33,471 nt of DNA from Acidobacteria bacterium AH-259-O06 (GTDB lineage Bacteria > Acidobacteriota > UBA6911 > RPQK01 > JADFOI01): positions 1 to 33,471 of the forward strand of contig JALLOM010000004.1 of assembly GCA_027717865.1 (NCBI GenBank), given 5' to 3'. The stretch's first letter is position 1. Every line of letters starts with the position of its first letter. A model generated the notes under the pieces. That model did not search any database. It was not told the origin of the DNA and was given only the letters and a program-made list of their open reading frames with translations. Positions 8,341-32,586 of the stretch are shown here, one piece after another. Made by a program: the position numbers and the translations under genes.

Positions 8341-9315
8341 TCACTTCCGGTGCATCCGTTCCTTCACGCGCTTCAGGCTCTCCTCGATTTGTGGAGCCGG
8401 GTGGAGATTTTGGGCTTTTTGATAGTTTTGTAGAGATTTGTTGTAATCCTTCTTTTTTTCGTAGATATAACCAAGACGATCGTACACTTCCCAATTGTCC
8501 GGCGCTAAGCTTACACTGTTCAAGAACGCGCTTTCGGCCGCTTCCAGATTCTGGCTAAAGAGCTGGGCGAGTCCCAGGTTGAACCAAGCGTCCGCATCCT
8601 GCGCATTCTCCTTCACATAATCTTTGAGAACAACGGCTGCTTTATTGTAGTTGTTTGCCTCAATAGCGCTGATGGCCTGTTGGTATTGCAACCGAGAGAG
8701 GTGGCGCTTCGCTTCCGAGGCGCCCGGATCCAAGGTCAGAGCTTGTTTCAGATATTTCTCCGCCTGCGTGAAATTTCCAAGTCGGTAATGAGAGATTCCC
8801 AGTTGTAGCACGTCTTTGAGTTTTCCTCGCTGGATGGAAATCGCTTTCTGCAGATCGGAGATGGCCTGATCGAACTCATTGATGTTGTAGTAAGCAGACC
8901 CTCGTGTGTGATACAGCTGATATTGATCGCGAGGTGAACGAGCGTAGCGCTCCCCTTTGAGCAAGGTGGCAATAGCGTCACCATATTTGCCACTGTTATA
9001 GTAGGCGAGCGCCAACCCGTAATAGGAAATGTAGTTGTTGCTCTTCAGCCGCAGTGCCTTCTGGAAGGCCTCGATGGCTTTCTCATACTTCTTTATTCTT
9101 AAGTAGGAATCTCCCAGGATTCGATGACCACTCTCGTAATCAGGATTTGCCTTGACGATCTGTGCAAATTCCTCAATTGCTTTGGAGTACTGCCCTTGCT
9201 TGTAATGGGAAAGTGCCTTCTCGAAGTCGCCCTGGGCCATCAGAGAAGCAACTACCCAGGTGAGCAGCAGAACGGTGGAAAATTTATTTTTCACTGCCTT
9301 ATTCGAATATTCCAA
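8341..9315 (-). CDS. TPR-repeat protein of the exbB-exbD operon
   Basis: About eight tetratricopeptide repeats fill the 324 residues, for example YKQGQYSKAIEEFAQIVKAN, KKYEKAIEAFQKALRLKS and NFTQAEKYLKQALTLDPGA. The N-terminal FSTVLLLTWVVASLMAQG looks like a signal peptide, so the protein is probably periplasmic or anchored to the inner membrane. The ORF begins at a TTG that overlaps exbD by 17 bases; a GTG at 9294 just after the exbD stop would give VKNKFSTVLLL and is an equally good start. It is last in exbB-exbD-exbD-TPR, an order in which the TPR protein may be a scaffold for the energy-transducing complex. Its exact role is unknown. Confidence 0.82.
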   Translation of the reverse strand: MEYSNKAVKNKFSTVLLLTWVVASLMAQGDFEKALSHYKQGQYSKAIEEFAQIVKANPDYESGHRILGDSYLRIKKYEKAIEAFQKALRLKSNNYISYYGLALAYYNSGKYGDAIATLLKGERYARSPRDQYQLYHTRGSAYYNINEFDQAISDLQKAISIQRGKLKDVLQLGISHYRLGNFTQAEKYLKQALTLDPGASEAKRHLSRLQYQQAISAIEANNYNKAAVVLKDYVKENAQDADAWFNLGLAQLFSQNLEAAESAFLNSVSLAPDNWEVYDRLGYIYEKKKDYNKSLQNYQKAQNLHPAPQIEESLKRVKERMHRK

Positions 9316-9736
9316 ACGCCTTCCAGCGTTCGACTTCGGTCCGGGTAGGGATGGATATGTGCTCTACTTGCAAGTATTTGAGGCGATCAAAAACGTCAAT
9401 CATAACGAAGTACGGGACGTCAGGCTGGGTTTGGATGATGACGGGCTTTTGGGGATTCTGATCCATCTTCATCTGTATGTAGCCGCCCATCTCTTCCAGC
9501 GACATCGGTGTCTTGTCCACCATGTACTGTCCCTCTCCCATAATTTTGATGTGGATCGCTTCTTCGGGTTGCACATCCACTTGCGTAGGGTCATCTTTGG
9601 GGAATCTGAACTGCAGCCCTCTGGTGGTGACAAACACGGCGGTGAGCATGAAAAAGATGATAAGTAAGAAGGCGATATCGGCCATCGAAGAAGTCGGAAT
9701 CGCACCTGGTGATCGAAGACGCGCTCTCAATTGCAT
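9299..9736 (-). CDS. exbD: ExbD/TolR-family biopolymer transport protein, second copy
   Basis: The 145-residue protein has the ExbD layout: a short cytoplasmic start, one membrane helix SMADIAFLLIIFFMLTAVF near residues 17-35, and a periplasmic domain. The Asp in MADIAFLL is the conserved proton-carrying residue of ExbD/TolR. It forms a proton channel with ExbB and passes proton-motive force to TonB or a similar transducer. It begins one base inside the stop of the preceding exbD. Two ExbD copies with one ExbB suggest a heteromeric stator. No tonB is in the window, so the coupled transducer is elsewhere. Confidence 0.9.
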   Translation of the reverse strand: MQLRARLRSPGAIPTSSMADIAFLLIIFFMLTAVFVTTRGLQFRFPKDDPTQVDVQPEEAIHIKIMGEGQYMVDKTPMSLEEMGGYIQMKMDQNPQKPVIIQTQPDVPYFVMIDVFDRLKYLQVEHISIPTRTEVERWKAFGIFE

Positions 9737-10167
9737 CAGGTGCCCCTCCTGACTTTCTTCTCGGTTAACAGACCAATCCTCTTGGCACCATGGACCCGCA
9801 ATTGGTCCAACACTGCATCGATCAGCTGGTAGCGGACCATGCGATCGGCTTTGATGAGAAACTCTTTGTCCGGGATAAACTCGATGATCTCCTGAGTGAG
9901 CAGGCCGATTTCTTCTGGACTGCCCAAAGGAAAGGAGGGCCGCTCACCGTCTGTAAATTGAATGGCACCGTCGGCTGTTATGGCAATAATTGCCGAATTC
10001 CTCGGTACCTCGGTTCGGATTTCCGAATCTGGAAGTTGTACCGTCGTCCGTTCCGGTGAAAAGGAGGTCGTCAGCATAAAGAAGATGATCAGCAAAAAGG
10101 CGATATCAGCCATGGAGGCGGTTGGTACCACTGGAGCGATTCGACGAGACTCATGCCTTTTCTTCAT
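9736..10167 (-). CDS. exbD: ExbD/TolR-family biopolymer transport protein, first copy
   Basis: This 143-residue paralogue of the next gene has the same TASMADIAFLLIIFFMLTTSF helix with the conserved Asp. A periplasmic domain follows (VQLPDSEIRTEVPRNSAIIA, then FLIKADRMVRYQLIDAVLDQ). The Arg-rich start MKKRHESRR fits a cytoplasmic N-terminus. It overlaps exbB by four bases and exbD2 by one, so the three are probably translated together. Similarity to the second ExbD is strongest in the membrane helix and weaker in the periplasmic part, which suggests division of labour and not a recent duplication. Confidence 0.9.
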   Translation of the reverse strand: MKKRHESRRIAPVVPTASMADIAFLLIIFFMLTTSFSPERTTVQLPDSEIRTEVPRNSAIIAITADGAIQFTDGERPSFPLGSPEEIGLLTQEIIEFIPDKEFLIKADRMVRYQLIDAVLDQLRVHGAKRIGLLTEKKVRRGT

Positions 10168-10856
10168 ACCACTTTCGTTTGTTGCCGGCTGACCTCTTCC
10201 GCTTCTATCGGCTGTCGTTGTTCTTGACCCTCGATTTCACTGAAGGTCTCTAGGAGCATGGAAGAGCTGGTTTCCATGTCGAGAACAAAGTTGGACACCT
10301 TATTATTAAAGTAGTTGTAGGCAGCCTGGACAGGCAGGGCGATAGTCAAGCCAGTGGCAGTAGTGATCAGGGCTTCAGAGATACCGCCCGCCACCGCCTG
10401 AGGATTTCCCAGGCCCACCTCGGCTAGAGCTTCGAAAGAGCGGATCATTCCAGTGACTGTTCCCAGAAAGCCGAAGAGGGGTGCAATGTTGGCCACCGTG
10501 GCCAGGATCCAAAGCCCTTTCTCCAATTTTGACACTTCGTGCAGGGCCACACTTTCCATGGCTTTGTCGATTTCGGGGTGAGACTTGCCGAAACGAAGAA
10601 GCCCCGACTTCAAAGTGGTCGCGACGGGATGGTCAAACGACTCGCAAACCTCAACGGAGCGACGCAAATCTCCACCCAGCAGAGACTCACGAATTCTTGA
10701 AAAAATTTCCGCTGTATCCCCCTTGATTCGGTTATAAGAGATGACTCTCTCAACGATGAAAATCAGGCCAAGCAGCGAGCAGAGGAAAAGCGGTATCATC
10801 ATCAGACCGCCTTGTCGGACGTAAGTGAAAAGAGTTCCACCGATTGCTAGCAGCAC
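10164..10856 (-). CDS. exbB: MotA/TolQ/ExbB proton-channel family protein
   Basis: The 230-residue protein has three membrane regions typical of ExbB/TolQ: LMMIPLFLCSLLGLIFIVER near residues 18-37, ATVANIAPLFGFLGTVTGMI in the middle, and ALITTATGLTIALPVQAAYN. The second and third carry the conserved small and Thr residues that line the proton path. It is the first gene of the operon and starts at GTG 10856 behind a clear ribosome-binding site (CTGGAGGAAAA). With the two ExbD proteins it should power TonB-dependent receptors like the one at 18975-22367. A TolQ-like role in the envelope is the alternative. Confidence 0.9.
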   Translation of the reverse strand: MLLAIGGTLFTYVRQGGLMMIPLFLCSLLGLIFIVERVISYNRIKGDTAEIFSRIRESLLGGDLRRSVEVCESFDHPVATTLKSGLLRFGKSHPEIDKAMESVALHEVSKLEKGLWILATVANIAPLFGFLGTVTGMIRSFEALAEVGLGNPQAVAGGISEALITTATGLTIALPVQAAYNYFNNKVSNFVLDMETSSSMLLETFSEIEGQEQRQPIEAEEVSRQQTKVV

Positions 10857-11009: not shown

Positions 11010-11041
11010 GTCAGGGGGTCAGGAGATCAGGAAGTCAGGGG
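11010..11041. repeat. CTGAC-spaced direct repeats over the stop of the NtrC-type regulator
   Basis: On the minus strand four CTGA(C/T) units occur with 5-9 base periodicity: CTGACTTCCTGATCTCCTGA, then CCCCCTGACG. The stop codon of the response regulator (complement of 11027-11029) is one of these TGA triplets, and its last residues PLTS come from the repeat. The rest of 10857-11026 between exbB and this gene is AT-rich leader DNA without a recognisable gene. Confidence 0.7.
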
Positions 11042-12418
11042 GACCTTGATGTTGAGGCGCTTAAGTTTTTCGTTCAGGGTGGTGGGATTGACACGCAGCA
11101 AGTTGGCGGCTTTTTTCTGGTTCCAATCGACCTTTTGAAGGGCGGTCATGATGAGGTTTTTCTCATACTCCAAAACCAGATCTTTCAAAGTGGCACCATT
11201 GTCCAGCAAATTCAGCTTGCCAAGACTCACCGAGGTCGAATCTAAGATTTCGCGGGGAAGTAAGTCTTGGGTGATGCCGCCCTGATTCGGTGCCAACACC
11301 ACGGCTCGTTCCATCACGTTTTCCAGTTCCCGAACGTTTCCTGGCCAGTCATACTCCATCAGCAGCTTCAGCACCGACTGGTCCAAGGAGCAAACGGGAC
11401 GCTCGTTCTCTTTACAAAAATGTTGCAGAAAGTGTTCGGCAAGAAGAAGAACGTCTTCTCGGCGCCGGCGAAGAGGTGGGAGAGCAATCCTGATGACGTT
11501 CAAACGGTAGTAAAGATCTTCACGGAATTCTTGATTTTCCACCGCTTGCTTAAGATCAATGTTGGTGGCGGCAATAATCCTGACATCCACCTTAATATTT
11601 TCCAGTCCACCGACGCGGCGGAACTCCCTTTCCTGGATTACGCGCAGCAGTTTAGATTGGGTGTCGAGGGGCAAAGTCCCCACTTCGTCAAGAAAAATCG
11701 TTCCAGCACTGGCGACCTCGAACAGACCTTTCTTGGTAGCGGTGGCCCCCGTGAAGGCTCCTCTGACGTGACCGAAAAGCTCGCTTTCCAACAAGTCGCT
11801 GGGAATTGAACCGCTGTTGACAGCCACAAAAGGGCCATTGGAGCGAGAGCTGCAGCTGTGCATGGCTTTGGCCACTAGCTCCTTTCCCGTTCCGCTCTCT
11901 CCCGTGATCAAGACAGTACTTCGGCGCGGCGCGACTTGAGTGATCAACTCGAAAACCTGCTGCATTTGCTCGCTTTTGCCAACAATGTTCTCAAAGGTAG
12001 AACGCTCTCTGAGAGTCTTCTTAAGCCGCCGGTTTTCCATCTCCAGGCTGCGCTTTTTGAGCCCGTTCTTGACCACCAACACTAATTCCTCGTTTTTGAA
12101 GGGCTTGGTGATGAAATCAAAGGCGCCGGATTTGGTTGCCTTGACGGCATTCTCGATCGAGGCGTAGGCGGAGATCATCACCACAACTATGTCGGGATCC
12201 ACCCGGAGAATTTCCTCAAGAGTGGCCAACCCACCCTTTCCGGGAAGCATCAGGTCAAGAAGAACAAGATCAACACCTTGCTCTTTGGTTTTTTCGATCC
12301 CCTCTTCCCCCGTTGCAGCGGCAGTTACCTTATAGCCTTCTTCCTGGAAGAGGGTGGTGACGATTTCCCGCATGATTTCTTCGTCATCAATGACCAGAAT
12401 GGAAGCTTGTGTTGACAT
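11027..12418 (-). CDS. σ54-dependent NtrC-family response regulator
   Basis: The 463-residue protein has three parts. Residues 1-120 are a receiver domain with acidic DDE and phospho-acceptor Asp-55 (LVLLDLMLPGKGG), the Thr/Ser switch (MISAYA) and the Lys in FITKPF. Residues 145-385 are an AAA+ domain with Walker A GESGTGKE, the σ54-contacting GAFTGA loop, Walker B IFLDEVG and an arginine-finger region (FREDLYYRLNVI). The last 60 residues hold a Fis-type helix-turn-helix (NQKKAANLLRVNPTTLNEKL). It is 12 bases after the PDZ-type kinase, its probable partner. When phosphorylated it should activate σ54 promoters, very likely including the one upstream of its own operon (15386-15401). Confidence 0.95.
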   Translation of the reverse strand: MSTQASILVIDDEEIMREIVTTLFQEEGYKVTAAATGEEGIEKTKEQGVDLVLLDLMLPGKGGLATLEEILRVDPDIVVVMISAYASIENAVKATKSGAFDFITKPFKNEELVLVVKNGLKKRSLEMENRRLKKTLRERSTFENIVGKSEQMQQVFELITQVAPRRSTVLITGESGTGKELVAKAMHSCSSRSNGPFVAVNSGSIPSDLLESELFGHVRGAFTGATATKKGLFEVASAGTIFLDEVGTLPLDTQSKLLRVIQEREFRRVGGLENIKVDVRIIAATNIDLKQAVENQEFREDLYYRLNVIRIALPPLRRRREDVLLLAEHFLQHFCKENERPVCSLDQSVLKLLMEYDWPGNVRELENVMERAVVLAPNQGGITQDLLPREILDSTSVSLGKLNLLDNGATLKDLVLEYEKNLIMTALQKVDWNQKKAANLLRVNPTTLNEKLKRLNIKVPLTS

Positions 12419-12430
12419 GGCCGGATTTTC

Positions 12431-15295
12431 TTAATTCACTCTTTTGATCGGGAGGTGGAGTCGAAAGGTGGTGCCCTTGCCTCGTTTGCTTTCAACGCTG
12501 ATGCGCCCTGAAAGCTCCTGAATTATGCCGTAGGAGACGGACAGACCGAGCCCGGTGCCCCTGCCAATGTCCTTAGTGGTGAAAAAAGGATCGTAGATTC
12601 TTTTGACGTCCTGCTCGGATATTCCCACACCACTGTCCTGAATTTCAACGACCAGCAGAGAATCTGTGCGGTAGGTCTTCACACTGAGTTGTCCTCCTTG
12701 GGGCATTGCGTCCTTGGCATTAAGACACAGGTTCATGAAAACCTGCTGCAGCTTGCTTCCGTTAGCCAAAGTCGGGGGCATGGTGGGGTCCAGATCCAGC
12801 TTGACGTCAAGACCAGCCTTTCGAAACTGGTGATCAAGCAGCGAAAGAGTCTCCAACATCAGTGAATTGACATTGATTTCGTGAAAATCGGAGTCTTTGA
12901 CTCGTGCAAAATTCAACAAATTGTTCACAATGTTCGAGGCGCGGAAGCCCTGCCTTTCAATCTTCTTCAACATTTTATGCCGTGGGTCGTCCGCAGGGAT
13001 CTCTTTCAGAAGCATCTGTGAGTAACTGGAAATGGCAGTGAGTGGAGTATTGACTTCATGTGCTATGCCGGCTGCCAGAAGGCCAATGGAGCTCAGTTTT
13101 TCAGCCTGTAGAAGTTGGCTCTCCAGCTGAACCTTCTCAGTGATGTCGTCAAGGACCAGCAGCGTCCCAGTCACCACGTCGTCTTGCAAGAGAAAAGGTG
13201 AAACTGTGATGTTTACCAACCGGCTGTGGCCGTCTGTGGATTGGATGTGAGTTTTATAGAGTCGGCTGGTCTCTTGGACAATCCAGGGTGGACCTTCGAC
13301 AATCTTTTGCAGCGTGCGCACAAGATCTACAGGAAAAACTTCAGAGATATTCTTGCCCAGAACCTCGTCCGCCCGCAGGCCACAGATGGTCTGCATGGAA
13401 TCATTCCAAACAGTAATTTCTCCTTCCGGAGTAATAACAAGAACGCCGACCGTGATGCTTTCCACCACGTTCTCACTATAGGCCTTAAGCTGAGCTAATT
13501 CATTGGCTTTGGTCTCTAGTGAGCGATAGAGCAGGGCGTTATCAATGGCAATGGCAGCATAACGGGCCAAGGTGCCGATCAAGTCAAGATCTTCGCTGCT
13601 CAGAAATTGACCATCAAACCGTTTCCCCAAACCCAGAAATCCAATCACCCGACCCCGAACTCGGAGAGGTTGGACATAGTGCAAATCCCACTCTGACAAT
13701 TGTGCCCTGACCCGGTCGACGACCTCACTGGGAGGCAATAAAAACAGGGGATTCAGCTCTCGATCAAAATCGGAAAAGATGGTGTCCGGAATAACCAGTT
13801 CAGTGGTTTTGCTCGTGCCGACTGGAAGATGCTGGGCGTGAAAAAGACGATACAGGTCCCCTTGTGCATCGTCCCGCAGAAAAAGCGCTATTGGAGCCAC
13901 ATTCAGGGTCTTGCGCAGTCGGGTTGAGATCCTCTCTGTGAGTGAAGAAAGCCCGATTTCCGAGCGCAGAGTTTTACCGAAGTCGGCTAGCGATTGGCGG
14001 TAGTCATACTCCTCTCGGTAAAAATAGCGGTCGATTTGGTCCTGAATCTTGTTTTTCAAGGGGGCAAATAGAAAGGCCACCAGAAGAGCTGATAGGGCAA
14101 AAAGTACAAAGCCTGATTCCGGGGAAAAGCCTTGGATGACTCGGCCAATCGACAGAACGATAACCACATACAGTCCTAAAAGGGCTGAGCTGGCCAGCAC
14201 ATAGGCGGCACCCTGCTTGAAAATCAGCGCCACGTCCATGAGTCTGTGCTTGGTGATGGCGTAGCCGAAGCTCAGAGGAATGAGCACCAATCCGAGAATG
14301 GAAGCTTCCATATAGGGGGAAATCGGCAAGCCGATCAAAAAAGGCACAGCATACAAACACAGAAAGGGAAGGATGGCGATTAGAGTTCCGCGCGTCACCC
14401 ATTTCATCTGCAGCCGTTGGATAGGGGAGGGCGCTTGGCGACGAGAATAAACAAGGGCCAGGGTCCCGAGCAGAAAGAAAGTCATGAAATGACTCAAGTG
14501 AACCTTGTCCAAAAAGTGTTCAATACCCGCGGTGCGGGGTAAACCAAGCGGCTTCAGGCTGCCCGAAAACCAAAGTGCCTGAAATCCCAGTAAAAAGAGC
14601 GATGGTAGGTAAAACAGGAATCTCAAAGAAGGCCAGTTTCTGACCAGAGAAAGTGGTTGGGGGAAATAACAGCAAAAGTGAACAAAAAGTGGAGGCAGCA
14701 GTACAAAAGCCGTGGCGGAAGACCAGTAGATAAGCAGGTCGAAGGTGTCTGCACGTCCTGAATAACGGTAGAGATAGAGTACAAAGGCGACCAAACAGAT
14801 CAGGTAAAAGTGAAAAGCCCCTTGTGCCTTCCAGCTGCGCAGGAAGATCAAGAGGCCGATGCCCAGGTGAGTGAAGGCAACCAGGGCAAGCAAGAAGTCA
14901 GTAAAACTGGTGCGCGGCTGGAGTTGAATCTCGATAGGATACGAGAGCCGAGAACCAGATCCTGCCTTTTCCAGTAAATAGGTTGCTTGGGTGCCGGGGG
15001 GCAAGGTTCCCGCCAGCAGCTCAACCACTTCGGTGTAATCGTCAAGGTTGCGGATGGGCATACCATTAATGCTAAGCAGCCGGTCGCCGCTGCCCAGACC
15101 ACTCCTGGTTGCTATCAGCCGAGGAGCTTCCAGTGACTTCACTTCCACTCCCCGGGGCGTCTGAGTCCAATTGACACCGTCGGAAGGCTCCCTCCATTGC
15201 ATCCGGTCCAGTAAATTGAGTAACCCGACGTAAATGGACAACGCAGATAGGATCAGGACCAAAACTGTCGTGGAGCGCCTGAAAAAAGCCATCAA
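12431..15295 (-). CDS. Membrane histidine kinase with PDZ, multi-TM, GAF and PAS modules
   Basis: The 954-residue sensor has an unusual order of parts. A first membrane helix (residues about 9-29) is followed by a periplasmic PDZ-like domain (about 45-115; SGLGSGDRLLSINGMPIRNL). A block of roughly eight hydrophobic helices follows (about 130-420), ending in GYAITKHRLMDVALIFKQGA and the FYREEYDYRQSL linker seen in multi-TM GAF kinases of the PrsK type. Then come a GAF domain (about 440-590), a PAS domain (about 605-725; GVLVITPEGEITVWNDSM), HisKA with the phospho-His in IAHEVNTPLTA, and HATPase boxes NLCLNAKDAM, DSGVGIS and GTGLGLSV. PDZ domains bind peptide C-termini, so the input may be an envelope peptide or protease product; this is inference. 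It probably phosphorylates the adjacent σ54 regulator. Confidence 0.93.
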   Translation of the reverse strand: MMAFFRRSTTVLVLILSALSIYVGLLNLLDRMQWREPSDGVNWTQTPRGVEVKSLEAPRLIATRSGLGSGDRLLSINGMPIRNLDDYTEVVELLAGTLPPGTQATYLLEKAGSGSRLSYPIEIQLQPRTSFTDFLLALVAFTHLGIGLLIFLRSWKAQGAFHFYLICLVAFVLYLYRYSGRADTFDLLIYWSSATAFVLLPPLFVHFCCYFPQPLSLVRNWPSLRFLFYLPSLFLLGFQALWFSGSLKPLGLPRTAGIEHFLDKVHLSHFMTFFLLGTLALVYSRRQAPSPIQRLQMKWVTRGTLIAILPFLCLYAVPFLIGLPISPYMEASILGLVLIPLSFGYAITKHRLMDVALIFKQGAAYVLASSALLGLYVVIVLSIGRVIQGFSPESGFVLFALSALLVAFLFAPLKNKIQDQIDRYFYREEYDYRQSLADFGKTLRSEIGLSSLTERISTRLRKTLNVAPIALFLRDDAQGDLYRLFHAQHLPVGTSKTTELVIPDTIFSDFDRELNPLFLLPPSEVVDRVRAQLSEWDLHYVQPLRVRGRVIGFLGLGKRFDGQFLSSEDLDLIGTLARYAAIAIDNALLYRSLETKANELAQLKAYSENVVESITVGVLVITPEGEITVWNDSMQTICGLRADEVLGKNISEVFPVDLVRTLQKIVEGPPWIVQETSRLYKTHIQSTDGHSRLVNITVSPFLLQDDVVTGTLLVLDDITEKVQLESQLLQAEKLSSIGLLAAGIAHEVNTPLTAISSYSQMLLKEIPADDPRHKMLKKIERQGFRASNIVNNLLNFARVKDSDFHEINVNSLMLETLSLLDHQFRKAGLDVKLDLDPTMPPTLANGSKLQQVFMNLCLNAKDAMPQGGQLSVKTYRTDSLLVVEIQDSGVGISEQDVKRIYDPFFTTKDIGRGTGLGLSVSYGIIQELSGRISVESKRGKGTTFRLHLPIKRVN

Positions 15296-15385: not shown

Positions 15386-15401
15386 CGCAAATTCGGTGCC
15401 A
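15386..15401 (-). promoter_or_regulatory. σ54 (-24/-12) promoter of the kinase-regulator operon
   Basis: Read on the minus strand, the sequence is TGGCACCGAATTTGCG. This matches the σ54 consensus TGGCAC-N5-TTGC at every fixed position, with GG and GC ten bases apart. The predicted transcript starts about 12 bases downstream, giving a leader near 80 bases before the kinase ATG at 15295. The operon encodes a σ54-dependent activator, so autoregulation is likely. The rest of 15402-15590 holds no gene; it contains GGGACAG/GGGACTT and TGATCCAA direct repeats of unknown meaning. Confidence 0.8.
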
Positions 15402-15590
15402 GCACCCGGAAATTCAAACCCAACTCCCTGTAAATGCTCCATTAACGGCGGATAGGTGCAAGGGACAGAAAACAGGGACTTGAGTAGCCCCTTCCCCTGA
15501 TCCAATTTTTCCAATCATGATCCAAAAATTTGAACTATAAGGAGCGAAGAACTAGCCTGAAGTCGGTTCGAGGATCTTCCCTAGTGTTAA

Positions 15591-17387
15591 CTAGAATCGG
15601 AGGGCGACTCCCCCGCGGACGGTCCTTGGACTTCGAACCAGGACAACATCCCCCATCGCGGTTTGCATCTTGCCCAGATCTTCATTGGTGAGGTTGCGGA
15701 TGTCGAATAGAGCTTCGATCTTATACTGGTAGACCGAGAGAAAATCCAGTCCAACGAAGCTCAACCATCCTGCGGGTACCGGTATCATCTGACGCACGAA
15801 AAGGTTGATTCCCTCGTTCCCGGTCTCGTACGTGTCAGAGAATGGATCCAAGGTCGTGATGGGGTTACCGTTGGGAACAAATTTGACTAGCGCATTAAGA
15901 TGAGTTCTGGAGGAGGGAATGTAGGCTTCAATCTCAGTGGAAACTGCATGATAGTTCTTGCGTGCCACCAGCGCGCGCGTGCTGGACTCTTCAAAAACCA
16001 AAGCCGCCGGTCCCTGCCAATTAACTCCAGCTCCGTTACCACGAATGTAAGACACCGAAGTATGTAGGTTGGGGCCAAGACGGCGACGCAATGTCAGTCG
16101 GTATCCGCTGTTATTTGCCTGTTCGTCGTCCAAATGTAGAGCTTGTACTTCGGGCTGATATTTGAAGACAGCCAGGAAAGGAGTGGCTCCCCCGAACAGC
16201 TGATTCTCATAGGCCGCAAACTCGATCCCGGTGTTTTGGTTGAGTTGCTGAGTGATGCTGGCCTGGTAGTGCCGTGAGGTTCCGATACTAAATTGATCGC
16301 CGACCCGCGAGAAGTAAACTGCATCGCTCAGGTTCACCACATCGCCATCGGGTAGGACCAAACTGCTGCGGTGGGTAATTCGTTTGGAAGCCATTAAAAG
16401 CTGAACTTTGGTGTGCCCAGTGGGAGAAAAAGAAAGCTCGGCATTCGGGTTGAGAAAGGTTCGACGAACATCTGTCCGCACCTGATCAAGTTCCAGACCC
16501 CACAGCAAAGAGAGTGCACTTCCTAAAAGCAGGCTTTCCTGGAAACCCAGACTTAGAATCTGAGTCGTTCCCAAAGCCCGTGTGTAGTCGAGGTTATCGC
16601 CTAGAGCAGTGGGATTGCTTAGAAGGGCCAAGCTTGGCTGATCAAAGCTCATTCGACCGTAACCGACAAACACCCGCATTGAATGGGAATCATTCAGGGG
16701 GTACTCAATGATATTCTTCAGGCGCCACAGTGAGTCTTCTCCTGAATTTAGCTGTCCAGCCATAATATATTTGTTGTTCCCCCAGGCCGACTCCACGAAA
16801 GCAAAATTGGTAGTTGTTCCACCTGCAGCATTGCCTGGGAAAACGAAGTAGTCCCCATCCAAGCCTGCATTGCTGTAGACTTCAAAAGCCGCCTCCTCAA
16901 AGAAAGGCGCCAAAGGACGGGTTTCAGAAGTCTCACTTGTGGCCTCAGGAAAATCGCGGAAGATGAGTCGTCGCTCCTCTGAGGTTCTCAGCAGTGTCTT
17001 GACACTAAGGTTTTCTCCCCCGGAAGAGTCCAGTTGAAACAATTGTTGAAGGATCAGGGTCACCACGGTGGTCTTACCCGGCCTTACTTGAATTACATTT
17101 TTTTGCGGGCTTAGATATTTTGAACTCTTGACCAGTATTTCGTAATTGCCCGTCTCAATATTATTGAGCTGGATTTCCCCTCCTGCATTGCTGCGTGTCA
17201 GAATCGGTAAGCTCTGTGCCGATGATTTCTGAAGGAGCGCAACCAGGATATTGGCCACCGGCTGTCCGGTCTGGTCCTGGAGTATCCCGGTGAAGTGCCC
17301 GAAGGAAGAAGCAAGAACCTGGGGAGAGATGAGAACTAGGCAAAGAGAGCACAATAGGAGAGAAGAGCGTCGAATTTCAAAAAACAT
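15591..17387 (-). CDS. Outer-membrane barrel-like protein with N-terminal carboxypeptidase-regulatory-like domain
   Basis: The 598-residue protein begins with a signal peptide (RRSSLLLCSLCLVLISPQVLA, cleavage near residue 26). A carboxypeptidase-regulatory-like β-sandwich follows at about 28-118 (FTGILQDQTGQPVANILVAL, then GNYEILVKSSKYLSPQK). The remainder has alternating aromatic and polar strands and ends GGVALRF, the terminal Phe expected for an outer-membrane β-barrel. No plug domain like that of TonB-dependent receptors is recognisable, and the length is about half that of the intact receptor at 18975. It is probably a small relative of the Oar/SusC-like receptors that has lost the plug, or a separate barrel family. 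It is co-oriented with and just upstream of the PDZ kinase operon, but the kinase has its own promoter. Confidence 0.72.
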   Translation of the reverse strand: MFFEIRRSSLLLCSLCLVLISPQVLASSFGHFTGILQDQTGQPVANILVALLQKSSAQSLPILTRSNAGGEIQLNNIETGNYEILVKSSKYLSPQKNVIQVRPGKTTVVTLILQQLFQLDSSGGENLSVKTLLRTSEERRLIFRDFPEATSETSETRPLAPFFEEAAFEVYSNAGLDGDYFVFPGNAAGGTTTNFAFVESAWGNNKYIMAGQLNSGEDSLWRLKNIIEYPLNDSHSMRVFVGYGRMSFDQPSLALLSNPTALGDNLDYTRALGTTQILSLGFQESLLLGSALSLLWGLELDQVRTDVRRTFLNPNAELSFSPTGHTKVQLLMASKRITHRSSLVLPDGDVVNLSDAVYFSRVGDQFSIGTSRHYQASITQQLNQNTGIEFAAYENQLFGGATPFLAVFKYQPEVQALHLDDEQANNSGYRLTLRRRLGPNLHTSVSYIRGNGAGVNWQGPAALVFEESSTRALVARKNYHAVSTEIEAYIPSSRTHLNALVKFVPNGNPITTLDPFSDTYETGNEGINLFVRQMIPVPAGWLSFVGLDFLSVYQYKIEALFDIRNLTNEDLGKMQTAMGDVVLVRSPRTVRGGVALRF

Positions 17388-17811: not shown

Positions 17812-18373
17812 TGTTTTACGGGAAGCTCGTCAGCATCTTAGCCGCCCTTTTTATTCATGAGTGTTCTTCATCCTGAAGATCCTCTTCTAAGCAGTTCTCA
17901 AAACTCCTTTATTTAGTGTCACACAGTTAGTGTATCATTTGTGAATCTGATCGCTGGAATTATGAGCTTCCTCCGATTTCCGCATTTTTTCTCATTTTTG
18001 GTGACGGCCATCACTGTAGGGATTGTTAAGACCTGAATAGGATGCTCACCATGTTAAATCCGCTTCAGCTTTTCTTCCACGGACCCGGCTACCTTGAAAA
18101 GAGGGCGGGCACTAAAGAGGCTATGATAAACATCTTTCGTCCGTTATTCGGAGTTAAGTCAATAGTCATTAAAGTTTGCGAAAGTAATAATTACGGTCGC
18201 AATTCTCATCTGAGTTCTACGAGGGGAGGGGTGAGTGAGGGCAAAGAATCCATTTTTTTGGATCAAAATTTAATAATGTGGGGACGTTCTCGCCATGGCA
18301 ACCCTTTCCATGGAGAACTATTTGAGTGCTAATCGATTGGAAAAATTGTACTTAGTTCAAATACTGGGTAGAG
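17812..18373. other. Gene-poor, probably degraded stretch
   Basis: About 560 AT-rich bases without a convincing gene. The track ORF at 18042-18332 (96 residues, MLTMLNPLQLFFHGPGYLEK) has no recognisable domain, no good ribosome-binding site and an atypical composition. I treat it as chance. The region lies between a phosphatase remnant and a truncated receptor, which supports decay of former genes. Confidence 0.5.
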
Positions 18374-18390
18374 TTGGAACATATTTTGCC
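18374..18390 (+). promoter_or_regulatory. Possible σ54 promoter ahead of the TonB-receptor region
   Basis: TTGGAACATATTTTGCC contains GG and GC exactly ten bases apart and matches TGGCAC-N5-TTGC except for one base in the -24 box (TGGAAC). It points to the truncated receptor at 18600 and the intact receptor at 18975. A σ54 activator gene is about 6 kb away. A leader of about 200 bases would contain the hairpin CCGGGC-CAATAT-GCCCGG (18544-18561). Confidence 0.45.
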
Positions 18391-18599
18391 TTGAGTCAAC
18401 TCGGTTTGGCGTCTGCGAGGTGCAAATACGTAAGAATTCGCTAGATAGATTGTGGAAAGGAGTTACACTTACGCAGAATCTTTCAATCCTCGGTTAGGAA
18501 TTGCAGGTGTGTACGCAGACTGGGGTTGGGAAGTTTTCTTCTGCCGGGCCAATATGCCCGGAAGGGTTATTTCGAGTGTCAACTCAGCTTAGGGAGGTG

Positions 18600-18914
18600 A
18601 TGATGACACAGCACCTAACAAAGCCAAGAATTCTTCTCCCTTTTTGTCTTTCCATCCTTGGATTGTGCCTGGTGGCAAACACTCACGCACAGTTGGGTAC
18701 GGGGAATATTACAGGAACGGTCAAAGATGCCACTGGGGCGGTTCTACCCGGCGTCGAGATCACCGTCCGGAATGAGGCGACAAATGTGACCCGGACGGGG
18801 GCCGTGTCTTTAACCGCCCATAGTGAAGCCATTATGTTGGCAATGCGCAGGAGTCATTGCTACGATTCTCGTTTATACCATTGCTCTTATGGTCTTAGTC
18901 TTAAAAGACAGTAA
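18600..18914 (+). pseudogene. Truncated N-terminus of a TonB-dependent receptor
   Basis: The frame starts at ATG 18600 or 18603 behind an excellent ribosome-binding site (AGGGAGGTG). It encodes a signal peptide (RILLPFCLSILGLCLVANTHA) and the first half of a carboxypeptidase-regulatory-like domain, GTGNITGTVKDATGAVLPGV, close to GAIRGIVRDATGAVIPGV in the intact receptor downstream. Homology stops after about NVTRTG; the remaining 35 or so residues are unrelated and end at TAA 18912. The plug and barrel are missing, so it is a pseudogene left by deletion. Another frame over 18815-18940 reads GVIATILVYTIALMVLVLKD, a likely membrane helix from a different lost gene. Confidence 0.8.
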
Positions 18915-18974: not shown

Positions 18975-21900
18975 ATGAGTTGTATGAATTGTGCCAAGAA
19001 GTTAGGGCCTAGGGTAAGCCCACTAACGTTTTTTGTCTTACTGGGTACCGTCGCTTTCCTTGTGTGTTTTGCTCACGCTCAGACGACTACTGGTGCAATT
19101 CGCGGTATTGTGAGGGACGCTACGGGTGCTGTAATTCCAGGTGTCGAGGTCACGGCGACAGAGGTCAACACGGGGATGTCAAGAAGCACCGTGAGCGGCG
19201 ACTCTGGTTTTTATGAGATCCTTCAGCTTGTGCCTGGGACCTATGACGTGAAGGCAGAGCTGCCAGGTTTTCGGACCTTTGTAGCCAGGCGAGTCACGCT
19301 TCAGATTCGCGAAGCTGTTCGGGTGGACATCAACCTGGAACTTGGAGAAATCACTGAAACCGTAATAGTAGAAGGTGCCACAAGTACAGTCGACACACAA
19401 AAAGCAGAAGTTGGGAAGGTTGTCGCCAACCGAGACATCATAGACCTCCCACTGGACATACCCCGAAGCGCTCTTGCACTGGCTCTCACTCAACCTGGCG
19501 TCATGCCTCCCGAGCCGGGCTCGGTCAGTAGCAGCAACTTCTCGGTGAACGGGCAGCGCGGCCAGAACAACAATTTCTTGCTGGAGGGCGGCAACAACAA
19601 CGATCTGGCGGCCAATTTCCCCACCTCCAACCCGCACGTAGAAGCGCTTCAGGAGTTTAAGGTTCAGGCTTCCAGCCACGACGCCGAATTTGGGCGCAAC
19701 AGTGGTGCCCAAATCAATGTTGTCATTAAATCGGGAACCAATGAAATTCACGGCAACGTTTATGAATTTCATCGCAATAACGTGCTGGACGCGCGCAGCT
19801 TTTTTCTCGCTGAGCGCGAGAAGTTGATTCGCAATCAATTCGGTTTCACGCTGGGCGGACCGGTGATCAAGGACAAGTTCTTCCTTTTCGGCTCGTACGA
19901 AGGATACCGCCATCGAGCTGACCAGGCCATTACCGACCCTTTTGTGCCCTCCCAGGCGGTTCGAAATGGCAATGTGGCCGGACTGTTAAGTGGTCTCGGT
20001 GCTGCTGTTCTGGACCCAGACGGAGATGGCATGATCGAGGTTCATCCCATTGCCAAAACGCTTCTTGATCGCTTTGTCCCCCTTCCCACAGGGGCCGTCG
20101 ATACCAGCACAGGTCTGGGCCAGCTAAAGGCGGCGGCGGGCGAGTTTGACGACAGTGATCAATTCATCATCAAAGGCAACTATGAGCTGAGGGATAACAA
20201 CAGCCTGGCGGTAACGTATCTTTTTGATGACGGCGAGGATTTCGACGCCTCTGCTTTTGGAAATCCATCCAACACTGTCCCCGGTTTTGGAGACTTTGGA
20301 GGTTCCAGGACTCAAAATGCCATCATCAACGATGTTCACACCTTCGCTCCCAATTTGATTAATAACTTCCGCTTCGCCTACAATCGTCTCTCTCTCTTTT
20401 CCGTGATCCCAGAGAACACGATAGCGCCTTCCGAGCTGGGATTTGACGGCATCCTCCCCAACAACGCAGCTTTCCAATCGACTCCCAACATCCGAGTCGA
20501 CGGTGCTTTTTCTCTAGGTGGTTCGATTCAGGGCCCTCAAGGCCGCGGAGATGACACCTTCGATCTTGGCGATACCTTGACCTGGGTGAAAGGGGACCAC
20601 AGCCTGAAATTCGGATTCAATTGGACTCACTTTAACCAGGATCAGATCTTTAACTTTACCAACAGTGGCGTTCACGTTTTCGCACCCGTGTTAGGGCAGG
20701 GCACGGCATTGGTTGACTTTCTGGCCGGCTTCTCCGTCTTCTATTTGCAGTCGGCTTTGCCTGATTTGCACTTCCGGCAGAACACACTTTCCTGGTTTGG
20801 CAATGATAACTGGAGACTGACGAATCGGCTCAGCATGAACCTGGGGCTTCGTTATGAAGTCTTCTTTCCGACTTTTGACACCCAAGATAAAATCGCCACA
20901 GTCGATTTCATTGGAAATGGCCAGATTGGAACCACCCAGTCGACGCGCTTTCCAAACGCTCCGCCGGGACTTCTGTTTCCCCGAGACGCCGGTATTGCCC
21001 GATCGACCACTCAAACAGACAAAGTCAATTTAGCTCCCCGAATCGGATTGGCGTATGATCTCACAGGCAATGGCACGATGGCGCTGCGAGCTGGCTATGG
21101 CATTTACTACAACGTGATCCAGACCGAATTGCAGTTGCAGTTTCTAAGCGCCCAACCATTCGGCATATTTGCTAGCGTCGGGCCTCTGGCGGGAGGCGCC
21201 CTTCCCTTCGCGGGCGGTCTTTTCGGCGGGCTCATCGGAGGACCTCAGCACTTCGGAGCTCCATTCGACGGTCAGACCAGCCCCTTTCCGTTCAGCTCTC
21301 CAGCGGCGGATTTCTTTCTCCCCATCGACTTTTCGTTGATCAGCAACCGTCTGAAGATCCCTTACTCTCACCAGTACAGCCTGTCGTATCAGTGGGAGTT
21401 TCTCAAAGATTATGTGCTGGAGGTGGCCTATGTGGGCTCGACCGGGATCAATCTCCTCTACCGGAACTTCGTCAATTTCATTCCTTTTCAGAGAAATCCC
21501 GATAATTCGATTGAGGTTCTCGGAGACGGGCCACCCAATGAGAGCTTTGGCCCTAACCTGCTTACACAGGAGTCGAGAGCCAACTCCAATTACAATTCCT
21601 TTCAAGCTTCCCTCAATAAGCGCTTTGGCAATGGCCTCGGCTTGCTGGCTGCTTATACCTACTCACATTCCTTGGACAATGCATCCGGGTTAAGGGACGA
21701 TGACATTCACGATCCACTGCGCCCCGACTTGAAAAAGGCCAATTCTAACTTCGACATTACTCAGCGATTTGTTTTCTCCTTCCAGTACGAGCTGCCCTTT
21801 GGACCCGGCAAATGGCTCGGAGCCGGTTCGAGCGGCCTACTGGCTCGGTTGATTGAAGGATGGCAGATTGGGGGTATCTTTGCAGCAGATGACGGGTTTC

Positions 21901-22367
21901 CACTCACCTTTTTCGTCAGCGGATCCAATTCCACTACTGAAATCCTGGCCTTTGACGACTTGCCGACTCTGGTGGGTGATCCTATGGCGGGAATCAGCAC
22001 CGGGAAAACTCAAGGCCGCGGTGTGGATGAGGAAACAACCTATTTCAATACGGACGCCTTCATTCGCTGCGACGATACCGACAAGGGTGGAATAGGTGGC
22101 CCCTGTTTTGGCAACCTCAGTCGAAACTTCCTGCGGGGACCCGGAGATGTCAACTTCGACTTTATCTTGCTCAAGCGGACCCACATCCCCCAAATCAACG
22201 AAGTGGCTAACGTGGAGTTTCGCTTCGAGGCCTTCAATCTTTTCAACAACCCGAATTTCGATGAGCCGGGGGCTGGCCTTGGGGGCGCCACCTTCGGAAA
22301 GATCACATCGATCAAGTCTCTTTTCGCACCTCGAATTCTCCAGTTCGCTCTTAAGTTCAACTTTTAA
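18975..22367 (+). CDS. TonB-dependent receptor, Oar-like, with carboxypeptidase-regulatory-like domain
   Basis: The 1130-residue protein starts behind AAGGAG with good spacing. A signal peptide ends near residue 35 (VAFLVCFAHA). A carboxypeptidase-regulatory-like domain covers about 37-120 (AIRGIVRDATGAVIPGVEVT, then GFYEILQLVPGTYDVKAELP). A plug-like region follows at about 125-250 (FSVNGQRGQNNNFLLEGG, then GAQINVVIKSGTNEIHG), and then a large β-barrel ending LQFALKFNF with terminal Phe. Barrel pieces such as NLGLRYEVF, RIGLAYDL and PYSHQYSLSYQWEF are typical of this family, which is greatly expanded in Acidobacteriota. It probably imports an oligomeric or bulky substrate using ExbB/ExbD/TonB energy. 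The substrate is unknown. A terminator-like hairpin follows the gene. Confidence 0.93.
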   Translation: MSCMNCAKKLGPRVSPLTFFVLLGTVAFLVCFAHAQTTTGAIRGIVRDATGAVIPGVEVTATEVNTGMSRSTVSGDSGFYEILQLVPGTYDVKAELPGFRTFVARRVTLQIREAVRVDINLELGEITETVIVEGATSTVDTQKAEVGKVVANRDIIDLPLDIPRSALALALTQPGVMPPEPGSVSSSNFSVNGQRGQNNNFLLEGGNNNDLAANFPTSNPHVEALQEFKVQASSHDAEFGRNSGAQINVVIKSGTNEIHGNVYEFHRNNVLDARSFFLAEREKLIRNQFGFTLGGPVIKDKFFLFGSYEGYRHRADQAITDPFVPSQAVRNGNVAGLLSGLGAAVLDPDGDGMIEVHPIAKTLLDRFVPLPTGAVDTSTGLGQLKAAAGEFDDSDQFIIKGNYELRDNNSLAVTYLFDDGEDFDASAFGNPSNTVPGFGDFGGSRTQNAIINDVHTFAPNLINNFRFAYNRLSLFSVIPENTIAPSELGFDGILPNNAAFQSTPNIRVDGAFSLGGSIQGPQGRGDDTFDLGDTLTWVKGDHSLKFGFNWTHFNQDQIFNFTNSGVHVFAPVLGQGTALVDFLAGFSVFYLQSALPDLHFRQNTLSWFGNDNWRLTNRLSMNLGLRYEVFFPTFDTQDKIATVDFIGNGQIGTTQSTRFPNAPPGLLFPRDAGIARSTTQTDKVNLAPRIGLAYDLTGNGTMALRAGYGIYYNVIQTELQLQFLSAQPFGIFASVGPLAGGALPFAGGLFGGLIGGPQHFGAPFDGQTSPFPFSSPAADFFLPIDFSLISNRLKIPYSHQYSLSYQWEFLKDYVLEVAYVGSTGINLLYRNFVNFIPFQRNPDNSIEVLGDGPPNESFGPNLLTQESRANSNYNSFQASLNKRFGNGLGLLAAYTYSHSLDNASGLRDDDIHDPLRPDLKKANSNFDITQRFVFSFQYELPFGPGKWLGAGSSGLLARLIEGWQIGGIFAADDGFPLTFFVSGSNSTTEILAFDDLPTLVGDPMAGISTGKTQGRGVDEETTYFNTDAFIRCDDTDKGGIGGPCFGNLSRNFLRGPGDVNFDFILLKRTHIPQINEVANVEFRFEAFNLFNNPNFDEPGAGLGGATFGKITSIKSLFAPRILQFALKFNF

Positions 22368-22438: not shown

Positions 22439-22489
22439 ATGTTCTCTTTCTGGTAAAATCGCCTGGTGAGTTCAGCTGACCTCTTCCTC

Positions 22490-24121
22490 ATGAGTCCTCG
22501 GGTGAAGAGCTCTATTTTTCTTCTGATCTTTGCCTTTTCAAGTGTAGCCTTCTCCCAAAAGGAAAAGGAGGAAAGAATACAGCAGCAGGAGGAAAAGCTA
22601 GACTATTTTCAGAAATGGCTCATTGAAGACGTGGTTTACATTATCACTCAGGCGGAGCGAGAGGTGTTTGAAGGCCTGACGACTCCGGAGGAAAAAGAGC
22701 GCTTCATCGAGCAATTCTGGAGACGCCGGGATCCGGACCCGAGTACCTCAATCAATGAGTTCAAAGAAGAACATTACCGCAGAATTTCCTACGCCAATGA
22801 GCGCTTTCATTCAGGGATTCCAGGATGGAAGACGGACCGGGGACGTATCTACATCCAGTACGGGCCTCCCGATGAAATCTCGGGAAAGCCGGCTGGCGGC
22901 ATGTATGTGCGCCCCCCCTACGAGGGAGGCGGCACCACTTCTGTTTTTCCCTTTGAAGTCTGGCGTTACAAGTACCTTGAAGGGATCGGTCCGGATGTGG
23001 AAATGGAATTCGTAGATCCTCATCAAAGTGGCGAATTCCGTCTGGCCAGAGACCCGCTGGAAAAAGATGCGGCCCTTTATATCCCGAATTCCGGTCTGAC
23101 GCTTTCCGAAGCGGCAGGGCTTACTGACAAGAGAGACCGCATCCTGGCCCGCAACCTCGCCAATCAAAAACTCTCTGCTGGCAATCCTTACTATGTGTAT
23201 CGTGCCAAAGACCAGCCATTCGAGAGGCTCCTACTTCGAAGTCAACTGGACAAGCCGCCCCGCGTCAAATACACGGACCTGCAAACCATCGTCCAAACTC
23301 GAATCAGTTACGATAAGATTGCCTTTCAATCCAGACTTCATTACCTTCGTGTCAGCGGCGATGATGTCCTTGCACCCTTAACGATTCTGATTCCCAACCG
23401 GGAACTTGGCTTTGAAAAACTGCCGTCTGGCGTTTACCGAGCTTCGGTTCAGCTCTATGGGGAAGTGTGGGACGTGGCGAAGAACATGGTCTACAACTTT
23501 GAAGACGAACTCTCCGTCGATTTCACGGAGGATAAACTTGCGGCTGGACAGAAGAAGAACTCCATCTTTCAGCGATATGTACCGTTAAAACCGGGGCGAT
23601 ATGTTTTGAAGATGGTGATCAAAGATGTCTCCAGCGATAAAGTGAGTACCGCCGACCAGCTAATCGTGGTTCCTAGGTTCCCGGAGGATTCAATTTCTGC
23701 GAGTTCCATGATTCTGGCTGATGCGATCATTCCAGAGAACACTGTCACAGAGCCAGGAATGTTTACACTGGGAAACGTCAAGGTGATACCCAGTGTAGAT
23801 TACGAGTTTGGACGGGACGATTACGTTTTTGTCTACTTTCAGCTCTATCAAGTGGGTGTGGATCAGCAAACCCTGCAGCCTAAGGTGCAGTTGAACCGGG
23901 TCCTGAGAGCCGGAAAACAAGTGGTATTACCTTTTTACCGAAATCCCAGGGTGCAAATTATCTCTGATGGTCGCGTTGTCGTCATCGATGCCATTCCGGT
24001 CAAGAGTTTGCCAGAAGGTCGTCATACATTGGAATATGAGATCGAAGATCTGGTCACAGGAAATAAATTCACCGTTTCCTCGGCAGAGTTCAAAGTTCAC
24101 AAGAAGGGGCCGGGTCTTTAA
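22490..24121 (+). CDS. GWxTD-domain secreted protein
   Basis: I prefer the ATG at 22490 over the track's GTG at 22466, because it puts the signal peptide SIFLLIFAFSSVAFSQ at the start (543 residues). A coiled-coil-like KEKEERIQQQEEKL follows. The GWxTD domain has YITQAEREVF-type helices, FWRRRDPDP, then GWKTDRGRIYIQYGPPDEI with the name-giving motif at residues 112-116. The C-terminal half consists of β-rich domains (FEKLPSGVYRASVQLYGE and PLKPGRYVLKMVIKDV). The family is common in Acidobacteriota, Bacteroidetes and related groups and its function is unknown. The last residues GPGL and the stop codon are provided by the left arm of a 25-bp inverted repeat, so the natural C-terminus may have been altered. 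Confidence 0.88.
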   Translation: MSPRVKSSIFLLIFAFSSVAFSQKEKEERIQQQEEKLDYFQKWLIEDVVYIITQAEREVFEGLTTPEEKERFIEQFWRRRDPDPSTSINEFKEEHYRRISYANERFHSGIPGWKTDRGRIYIQYGPPDEISGKPAGGMYVRPPYEGGGTTSVFPFEVWRYKYLEGIGPDVEMEFVDPHQSGEFRLARDPLEKDAALYIPNSGLTLSEAAGLTDKRDRILARNLANQKLSAGNPYYVYRAKDQPFERLLLRSQLDKPPRVKYTDLQTIVQTRISYDKIAFQSRLHYLRVSGDDVLAPLTILIPNRELGFEKLPSGVYRASVQLYGEVWDVAKNMVYNFEDELSVDFTEDKLAAGQKKNSIFQRYVPLKPGRYVLKMVIKDVSSDKVSTADQLIVVPRFPEDSISASSMILADAIIPENTVTEPGMFTLGNVKVIPSVDYEFGRDDYVFVYFQLYQVGVDQQTLQPKVQLNRVLRAGKQVVLPFYRNPRVQIISDGRVVVIDAIPVKSLPEGRHTLEYEIEDLVTGNKFTVSSAEFKVHKKGPGL

Positions 24122-31228: not shown

Positions 31229-31236
31229 GAGACTCC

Positions 31237-32586
31237 GTGACTGCCAAGCTCCTCGTTGTTGACGACGAAGAAAACGTTCGAATCTCCCTTCAGGGGATTC
31301 TCCAGGACGAAGGATACACAGTGGATTCTGTCTACTCGGGAGAGACCTGTCTAGAGGAACTGGAGAGAAAAAAATACGATGTTGTTTTTCTCGATGTCTG
31401 GCTGCCGGGAAAGGACGGAATCGAGGTACTCAAAGAGCTCAGGAGCAGACGCCCCGGACAATACGTCATCATGATTTCCGGCCACGGAACCGTAGAAACA
31501 GCGGTGCAAGCGACTAAACTAGGGGCCTTCGACTTTATAGAAAAACCCCTTTCCTTAGAAAAAGTGGTTCTGGTCCTAGAGCACGCCCTCAGGCAGAAAC
31601 GCTTGGAAGAGGAGAATCGGACTCTAAAAGACTTTATTCGTCAAGAAACGGTGATGATCGGAAGTTCCGTCCCTATGAAGGCGCTGCGCCAACAGACTGA
31701 ATATGCGGCACCAACGGAAGGAAGGATTCTAATCTACGGAGAAAATGGGACAGGAAAAGAACTGGTGGCCAAACTGCTCCACCTGAACAGTCGTCGCAAA
31801 GACCAACCCTTTATTGAAGTGAACTGCGCCGCTATCCCGGATGATCTCATCGAGAGTGAATTGTTTGGAAGTGTGAAGGGGGCCTATACGGGGGCCACAG
31901 AGAGTAGGAAGGGTAAGTTCGAGTTGGCCGATCAAGGGACTCTGTTCTTGGACGAAGTTGGAGACATGAGTCTGAAGACTCAAGCCAAGGTGCTGAGGGT
32001 CCTGGAAGAACAGCGATTCTACCCGGTCGGAAGTAACGAGGCCATTGAGGTGGATGTGCGCGTAATCGCAGCCACTAACAAGGATCTCGAGCAGGAGATC
32101 GAAAAGGGGAATTTTCGACAGGACCTTTTTTTCCGTCTGAATGTGATCCCTTTTGAGGTACCCCCCCTGCGGGATAGAAAGGAGGACATTCCCGAACTGG
32201 TGGACTATTTTATGGAGGATTTCTGCCAGCGGTATGGAAAACGCAAAAAACGGATCCAAACCGAGGCCATGAGCAAACTGCAGTGTTACCAGTGGCCTGG
32301 TAACGTTCGAGAGCTCAAGAACACAATAGAGCGTCTAGCCATTATGGTTCCAGGCCAGGAGGTCACCCTTTTTGATCTTCCTTCCTCGATTCTCAAACAA
32401 TCCCAGGGAGCCAGGGAGAGGAATCTCCAGAAGTGGCAGGGAGCTCGCGAGGAATTCGAACGCCAGTTTATCTTGGAGAAGCTGGTCGAGAACGAGGGCA
32501 ACGTTTCGCGCACCGCTGCTGCCATCGGGATGGAACGAACTCATCTGCACCGCAAGCTGAAAGCCTACAATATCAAATTGAAGTAG
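31237..32586 (+). CDS. NtrX-like σ54-dependent response regulator with a GAYTGA loop
   Basis: The 449-residue regulator starts at GTG 31237. The receiver domain has DDEE and phospho-acceptor Asp-53 (VVFLDVWLPGKDG) and FIEKPL. The AAA+ domain has Walker A GENGTGKE, Walker B LFLDEVGDM, and a σ54-contact loop that reads GAYTGA where the first regulator in this window has GAFTGA. The C-terminus is a Fis-type helix-turn-helix (NVSRTAAAIGMERTHLHRKL). A Tyr in the loop is conservative and probably still active, but NtrX-type proteins can act without σ54, so function should not be assumed. A TGAC palindrome follows the stop by five bases. Confidence 0.93.
   Translation: MTAKLLVVDDEENVRISLQGILQDEGYTVDSVYSGETCLEELERKKYDVVFLDVWLPGKDGIEVLKELRSRRPGQYVIMISGHGTVETAVQATKLGAFDFIEKPLSLEKVVLVLEHALRQKRLEEENRTLKDFIRQETVMIGSSVPMKALRQQTEYAAPTEGRILIYGENGTGKELVAKLLHLNSRRKDQPFIEVNCAAIPDDLIESELFGSVKGAYTGATESRKGKFELADQGTLFLDEVGDMSLKTQAKVLRVLEEQRFYPVGSNEAIEVDVRVIAATNKDLEQEIEKGNFRQDLFFRLNVIPFEVPPLRDRKEDIPELVDYFMEDFCQRYGKRKKRIQTEAMSKLQCYQWPGNVRELKNTIERLAIMVPGQEVTLFDLPSSILKQSQGARERNLQKWQGAREEFERQFILEKLVENEGNVSRTAAAIGMERTHLHRKLKAYNIKLK

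Follow-up and report, generated by a model that had tools for sequence, protein, structure and literature searches.

What would a histidine kinase that exposes a PDZ domain to the periplasm respond to, and which genes would it control? The question is raised by a reading frame on the minus strand of the window (the whole 33,471-nucleotide stretch of DNA analyzed here) that is open over its length from 12431 to 15295. The listed start is a TTG at 15295, followed directly by an ATG at 15292; the latter is the likelier start, giving a PDZ sensor histidine kinase encoded at 12431..15292 (953 aa including the stop; ORF, Pfam, and AlphaFold2 model). The protein runs from a first transmembrane helix through a PDZ domain and nine further helices to GAF, PAS, and HisKA/HATPase domains. 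This is the order given in the preliminary description, whose block of eight helices becomes nine by hydropathy and AlphaFold2, ten in all. PAS, GAF, HisKA, and HATPase_c score above the Pfam curated cut-off, and PDZ_6 and PDZ fall slightly below it. The cytoplasmic GAF, PAS, HisKA (His745), and HATPase_c domains occupy 12443..13942 (minus strand), and the catalytic residues H745, E746, N854, N858, and D886 are invariant across a set of 38 orthologues. The AlphaFold2 model has a mean pLDDT of 80 and a pTM of 0.51, so the domain arrangement is uninformative, though the single domains are well modelled. A Foldseek search with the full model matched only kinases and photoreceptors, and nothing was matched for the ten-helix block.

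The assignment of the PDZ domain (residues about 34-126; 14915..15193, minus strand; Pfam, orthologue profile, and AlphaFold2 model) is settled by a profile of the 38 kinase orthologues, which matches the PDZ domains of DegP (E=5e-15), RseP (2e-8), and DegS (about 1e-6). Within the domain, Gly39 lies in the loop preceding the strand at residues 40-45, with a helix at 83-96; the glycine is invariant (38/38), and it is directly preceded by Asp38 in 33/38 orthologues. In HtrA proteases the position just before the PDZ loop glycine holds a hydrophobic residue. Both family-averaged hydropathy and the AlphaFold2 model give ten membrane helices: TM1 (residues about 2-32) precedes the PDZ domain, and the nine helices TM2-TM10 (residues about 130-424; 14021..14905, minus strand) follow it. 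An even number of helices together with a cytoplasmic kinase puts the N-terminus inside and the PDZ domain in the periplasm, and the loop charges fit this topology, with five K/R residues in loop 283-303. The predicted topology thus places the PDZ domain in the periplasm, as had been supposed.

The gene that follows the kinase gene, at 11027..12418 (minus strand), encodes an NtrC/AtoC-type response regulator in which the receiver, a sigma54 AAA+ domain with GAFTGA motif, and a Fis-type HTH are all present (Pfam, NCBIfam, and motif comparison), and the two genes adjoin almost everywhere among the loci examined. A sigma54 (-24/-12) promoter pattern, TGGCACCGAATTTGCG (15386..15401, minus strand), lies 106 bp upstream of the TTG listed as start of the kinase gene; in most genomes a promoter of this kind occupies the gap between kinase and upstream barrel gene and is directed into the kinase gene. 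Some 100-150 bp upstream of the promoter are tandem inverted repeats of the form TYCAA-N4-TTGRA, mostly 19-22 bp apart; in the window they lie at 15501..15534 (minus strand), the first exact and the second degenerate, and constitute a putative regulator site. The repeats occur in 33 of 38 loci whose regulator has the usual recognition helix versus 0/15 in a sister clade with another one (p = 2.5e-9, a value inflated by relatedness). The sister-clade regulators have GAFTSA in place of GAFTGA, a different recognition helix, and no repeats (GAFTSA loci: L196, L199-L201, L205, L206, L208-L211, L213, L215-L217, L219, and L051). Such covariation of repeat and helix would be expected of a regulator and its cognate site, and we infer that the regulator binds the TYCAA-N4-TTGRA repeats. 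RpoN is encoded in 57/60 genomes. The window holds a second kinase-regulator pair at 29021-32586 (plus strand), the regulator of which matches NtrX best of the NCBIfam models, though below the cut-off.

Beyond the regulator gene, at 8341..10856 (minus strand), are ExbB, ExbD, ExbD, and TPR genes (Pfam) that keep the same order in many relatives and are possible downstream genes of the system. For the wider regulon, the pattern of repeats plus sigma54 promoter was searched in 60 genomes with the reversed pattern as control. The search returned 60 matches at 58 distinct places, and the control none. Twenty of these places are the kinase's own promoter and 38 lie elsewhere; 36 of the 38 have a readable downstream gene, which in 30 cases is TonB-dependent-receptor-like. 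Of these calls, 25 (of 31 genes compared) come from BLAST to the receptor-like protein of the window and the other five from size and N-terminal sequence. When the same BLAST test was applied to ORFs near the kinase, a baseline local to its neighborhood, 1/438 qualified (Fisher p about 1e-34 for 25/31). The remaining downstream genes encode LpxC, rubrerythrin, and two unassigned proteins, along with two short or cut ORFs. The LpxC gene (L147, G056:C34) has the pattern directly before it; this is a single case and may be chance.

The genome from which the window comes has 19 perfect sigma54 patterns, mostly without the repeat, and three further receptor genes with repeat and sigma54 promoter (L175, L222, and L252). 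In the window itself, a repeat with one mismatch, TCCATTTTTTTGGA (18249..18262, plus strand), is alone not above chance and was read together with the adjoining exact sigma54 pattern, TGGAACATATTTTGC (18375..18389, plus strand), 113 bp past it. The proposed target is a TonB-dependent-receptor-like protein with CarboxypepD_reg and OMP_b-brl_4 domains (18975..22367, plus strand; Pfam). Between this pair of sites and the receptor start are 0.6-0.7 kb that include a short fragment, and this distance and fragment make the link of the site to the intact receptor less direct. The fragment, ORF 18501-18914 (plus strand), looks like a cut TonB-dependent receptor N-terminus with a partial CarboxypepD_reg domain, perhaps a gene remnant. 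A GWxTD-domain protein is encoded after the receptor gene, at 22466-24121 (plus strand), and another immediately upstream of the L045 barrel gene. In one genome (G019) a site stands before a receptor gene, yet no orthologous kinase was found. At the level of sequence prediction, sigma54 promoters with upstream sites are present at the target genes, and the regulator very probably activates receptor genes through sigma54. The connection between sigma54 and the envelope that was first proposed is therefore supported, since the regulator belongs to the sigma54 activators and its inferred targets are mainly outer-membrane receptor genes. Stress is not indicated by these targets, which are receptors and not chaperones or proteases.

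Full-length or nearly full-length kinase orthologues are found in most of the 60 Acidobacteriota genomes, nearly all of them draft assemblies and mostly from metagenomes; in our counts each genome stands for itself, even where several are related. In 85,462 species, a scan with 16 kinase N-terminal sequences gave 44 kinase loci, almost all of which carry an Acidobacteriota label; the label Acidimicrobiia on one of them is probably due to misbinning. The preliminary description had named co-occurrence of the kinase with the barrel protein encoded upstream as a check on its proposal, and the two genes adjoin in 55/59 Acidobacteriota loci with more than 1.2 kb of sequence upstream of the kinase, as judged by a barrel profile (about 18 of the 55 were not used in building it). 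This includes loci where BLAST misses the barrel; each of the four loci without an adjacent barrel has an unlinked homologue, and the adjacency stays while other neighbor genes change across the phylum. In family f15 (G041 and G056; loci L287 = G041:C88 and L288 = G056:C30) no full barrel homologue was detected, and these small genomes retain sites linked to receptor genes and a diverged kinase that has a PDZ-like stretch. A clean presence/absence co-occurrence for the kinase was dropped, because G041, G047, and G056, at first scored as without the kinase, carry such diverged kinases. The barrel as a general target of the system was likewise rejected: most loci have no conserved sigma54 site before it, and where the barrel-kinase gap is short a promoter shifted to before the barrel was searched for and none was found. 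The barrel usually lies outside the sigma54 transcript and has its own promoter region. A mirror-tree analysis for contact between PDZ domain and barrel was not specific; nearly every kinase region was significant and the PDZ domain was weakest.

We favor, with moderate confidence, the reading that a sigma54 two-component system found across the phylum is coupled to an outer-membrane barrel and sets the expression of TonB-dependent receptor genes. The kinase would be held in the inner membrane by its ten helices with the PDZ domain facing the periplasm. The PDZ domain and membrane block would most likely sense the condition of the partner barrel, either while it is still unassembled and in transit or through its N-terminal arm in the periplasm. 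By way of GAF and PAS the signal would reach His745 and then the NtrC-type regulator. At the tandem TYCAA-N4-TTGRA sites and with sigma54, the regulator would turn on the genes for the kinase and for itself (positive autoregulation) as well as TonB-dependent receptor genes, including one in the window. We count in favor of this reading the barrel adjacency, the sigma54 promoter, RpoN, the covariation of repeat and helix, the receptor targets, the profile matches of the PDZ domain, and the ten helices; against it stand the position of the barrel outside the sigma54 transcript, the f15 genomes without a full barrel, the G019 site without a kinase, the mirror-tree result that does not single out the PDZ domain, and the repeats missing in a whole clade. 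Its parts differ in strength: it is likely that kinase and barrel act together, with the barrel as the presumed input; that the PDZ domain receives an outer-membrane signal is a real possibility, if slightly on the doubtful side; and that it binds a free C-terminus is improbable.

The barrel protein itself (15591..17387, minus strand; Pfam, alignment, model, Foldseek, and barrel profile) consists of a signal peptide, a CarboxypepD_reg domain, a low-confidence linker, and then the barrel, and ends in VRGGVALRF. The linker holds a conserved motif, LLRxxxxRRLIFR (residues about 122-145; 16953..17024, minus strand; alignment and model), and the most conserved part of the protein is the C-terminal stretch; either could be readable by the kinase. 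One alternative that gives weight to the linker is that the barrel is a ligand-binding nutrient sensor whose periplasmic arm (CarboxypepD_reg plus linker) reports substrate to the kinase, so that matching receptors are made. The receptor targets and the ExbB/ExbD genes after the regulator in many relatives suit this idea, as does the barrel fold, for which the best Foldseek matches are TonB receptors (E about 1e-7, but with TM-scores of about 0.3), and the linker motif is kept even where CarboxypepD_reg is lost. However, no plug domain was found in the barrel protein by Pfam, the CarboxypepD_reg domain is not universal, the linker is predicted to be disordered, and its contact with the kinase is hypothetical; we regard the nutrient sensor as rather unlikely. 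It is unlikely, too, that the system is a phylum-wide feedback control on the supply of outer-membrane proteins, in which the PDZ domain directly reads unassembled barrel or receptor proteins in the periplasm and adjusts sigma54-driven transcription of TonB-dependent receptor genes, the barrel being a reporter built into the system for this purpose.

The other alternative places the weight on the C-terminus. The preliminary description had proposed a DegS-like envelope stress sensor, in which misfolded outer-membrane proteins are bound by the PDZ domain at their exposed aromatic C-termini and sigma54 takes the place of sigmaE, and it had correctly noted that the upstream barrel ends in an aromatic residue (...VALRF). 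The kinship of the PDZ domain with those of DegP and DegS, its invariant loop glycine, the conservation of the barrel's C-terminal stretch, and an inferred regulon of outer-membrane proteins are all in keeping with this proposal. However, in family f10 the barrels extend one residue beyond the Phe, and this residue is variable (Y/Q/N/R/H/E; loci L046, L049, L050, L052, and L063-L066) while the kinase PDZ domain is kept; this speaks against a strict requirement for Phe at the free C-terminus. The terminal Phe is also found in 20/21 long receptor targets, so that it alone could not single out the barrel. With the Asp38 beside the loop glycine, these observations weaken the case for PDZ recognition of the barrel's C-terminal aromatic. 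The targets, moreover, are receptors and not chaperones or proteases, and making more of them would aggravate misfolding if the signal were not an inhibitory one; we consider a stress sensor quite unlikely. That barrel and kinase are neighbors without a signaling link, the barrel being a housekeeping protein and the kinase sensing otherwise through its PDZ domain or membrane block as ComP senses ComX, would agree with the barrel's own promoter region, family f15, and the unspecific mirror-tree result, but is very unlikely given adjacency in 55/59 loci across a phylum in which other neighbors change.

The favored reading, a sigma54 two-component system coupled to the barrel, would matter for the Acidobacteriota: these bacteria are abundant in soil and have many TonB-dependent receptors, about whose control little is known. 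Across the phylum it would link an operator, made up of tandem TYCAA-N4-TTGRA repeats and a sigma54 promoter, with a regulator, a kinase, and a partner in the outer membrane. The regulon could be tested directly, and the kinase is a candidate for a PDZ sensor that receives information from the outer membrane. A search of the open-access full-text literature, outside which most subscription papers lie, yielded no account of this system.

Several known systems share parts of this arrangement. As in NtrC, AtoC, and ZraR, the regulator combines a receiver, a GAFTGA AAA+ domain, and a Fis-type HTH, with sites upstream of a -24/-12 promoter; here, however, the inferred targets are TonB-dependent receptors, the repeat (TYCAA-N4-TTGRA) is its own, and it is missing from a sister clade in which GAFTGA is replaced by GAFTSA. 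In FecA-FecR-FecI cell-surface signaling, an outer-membrane barrel informs an inner-membrane protein that controls receptor genes. A similar arrangement is proposed here, but with a kinase and sigma54 instead of an anti-sigma factor and ECF sigma, and with no plug found in the barrel. The DegS-RseP-sigmaE pathway shares a sequence-related periplasmic PDZ domain of the HtrA kind and a link to outer-membrane proteins; unlike it, the present system has a kinase, sigma54, and inferred receptor targets, with no anti-sigma factor, and no protease domain was found in the kinase or among the window proteins scanned with Pfam. The closest likeness in layout is Bacillus ComP, predicted to have TM1, an extracellular PDZ-like region of ~85 residues, helices totalling ten, and a kinase, and for which PDZ-ComX binding has been suggested (PMC9620489); among the four non-protease classes in a survey of PDZ proteins from microbes is "sensor histidine kinase ComP", drawn with HisKA_3 (PMC6411480). 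The two share TM1, an extracytoplasmic PDZ domain, nine further helices, a regulatory region, and a kinase, a likeness of layout: here Pfam finds HisKA together with GAF and PAS in place of the HisKA_3 of the ComP class (PMC6411480), and the regulator is of the sigma54 NtrC type with a link to an outer-membrane barrel, whereas ComP serves Gram-positive quorum sensing with ComX. The sensor design, first taken for an uncommon one, is thus of a known type, and since the ComP-type layout is already known, the placement of the PDZ domain by itself is not new. What is new is the surroundings of the kinase: the pairing with a barrel, the sigma54 promoter with its repeats, and the receptor-linked sites.
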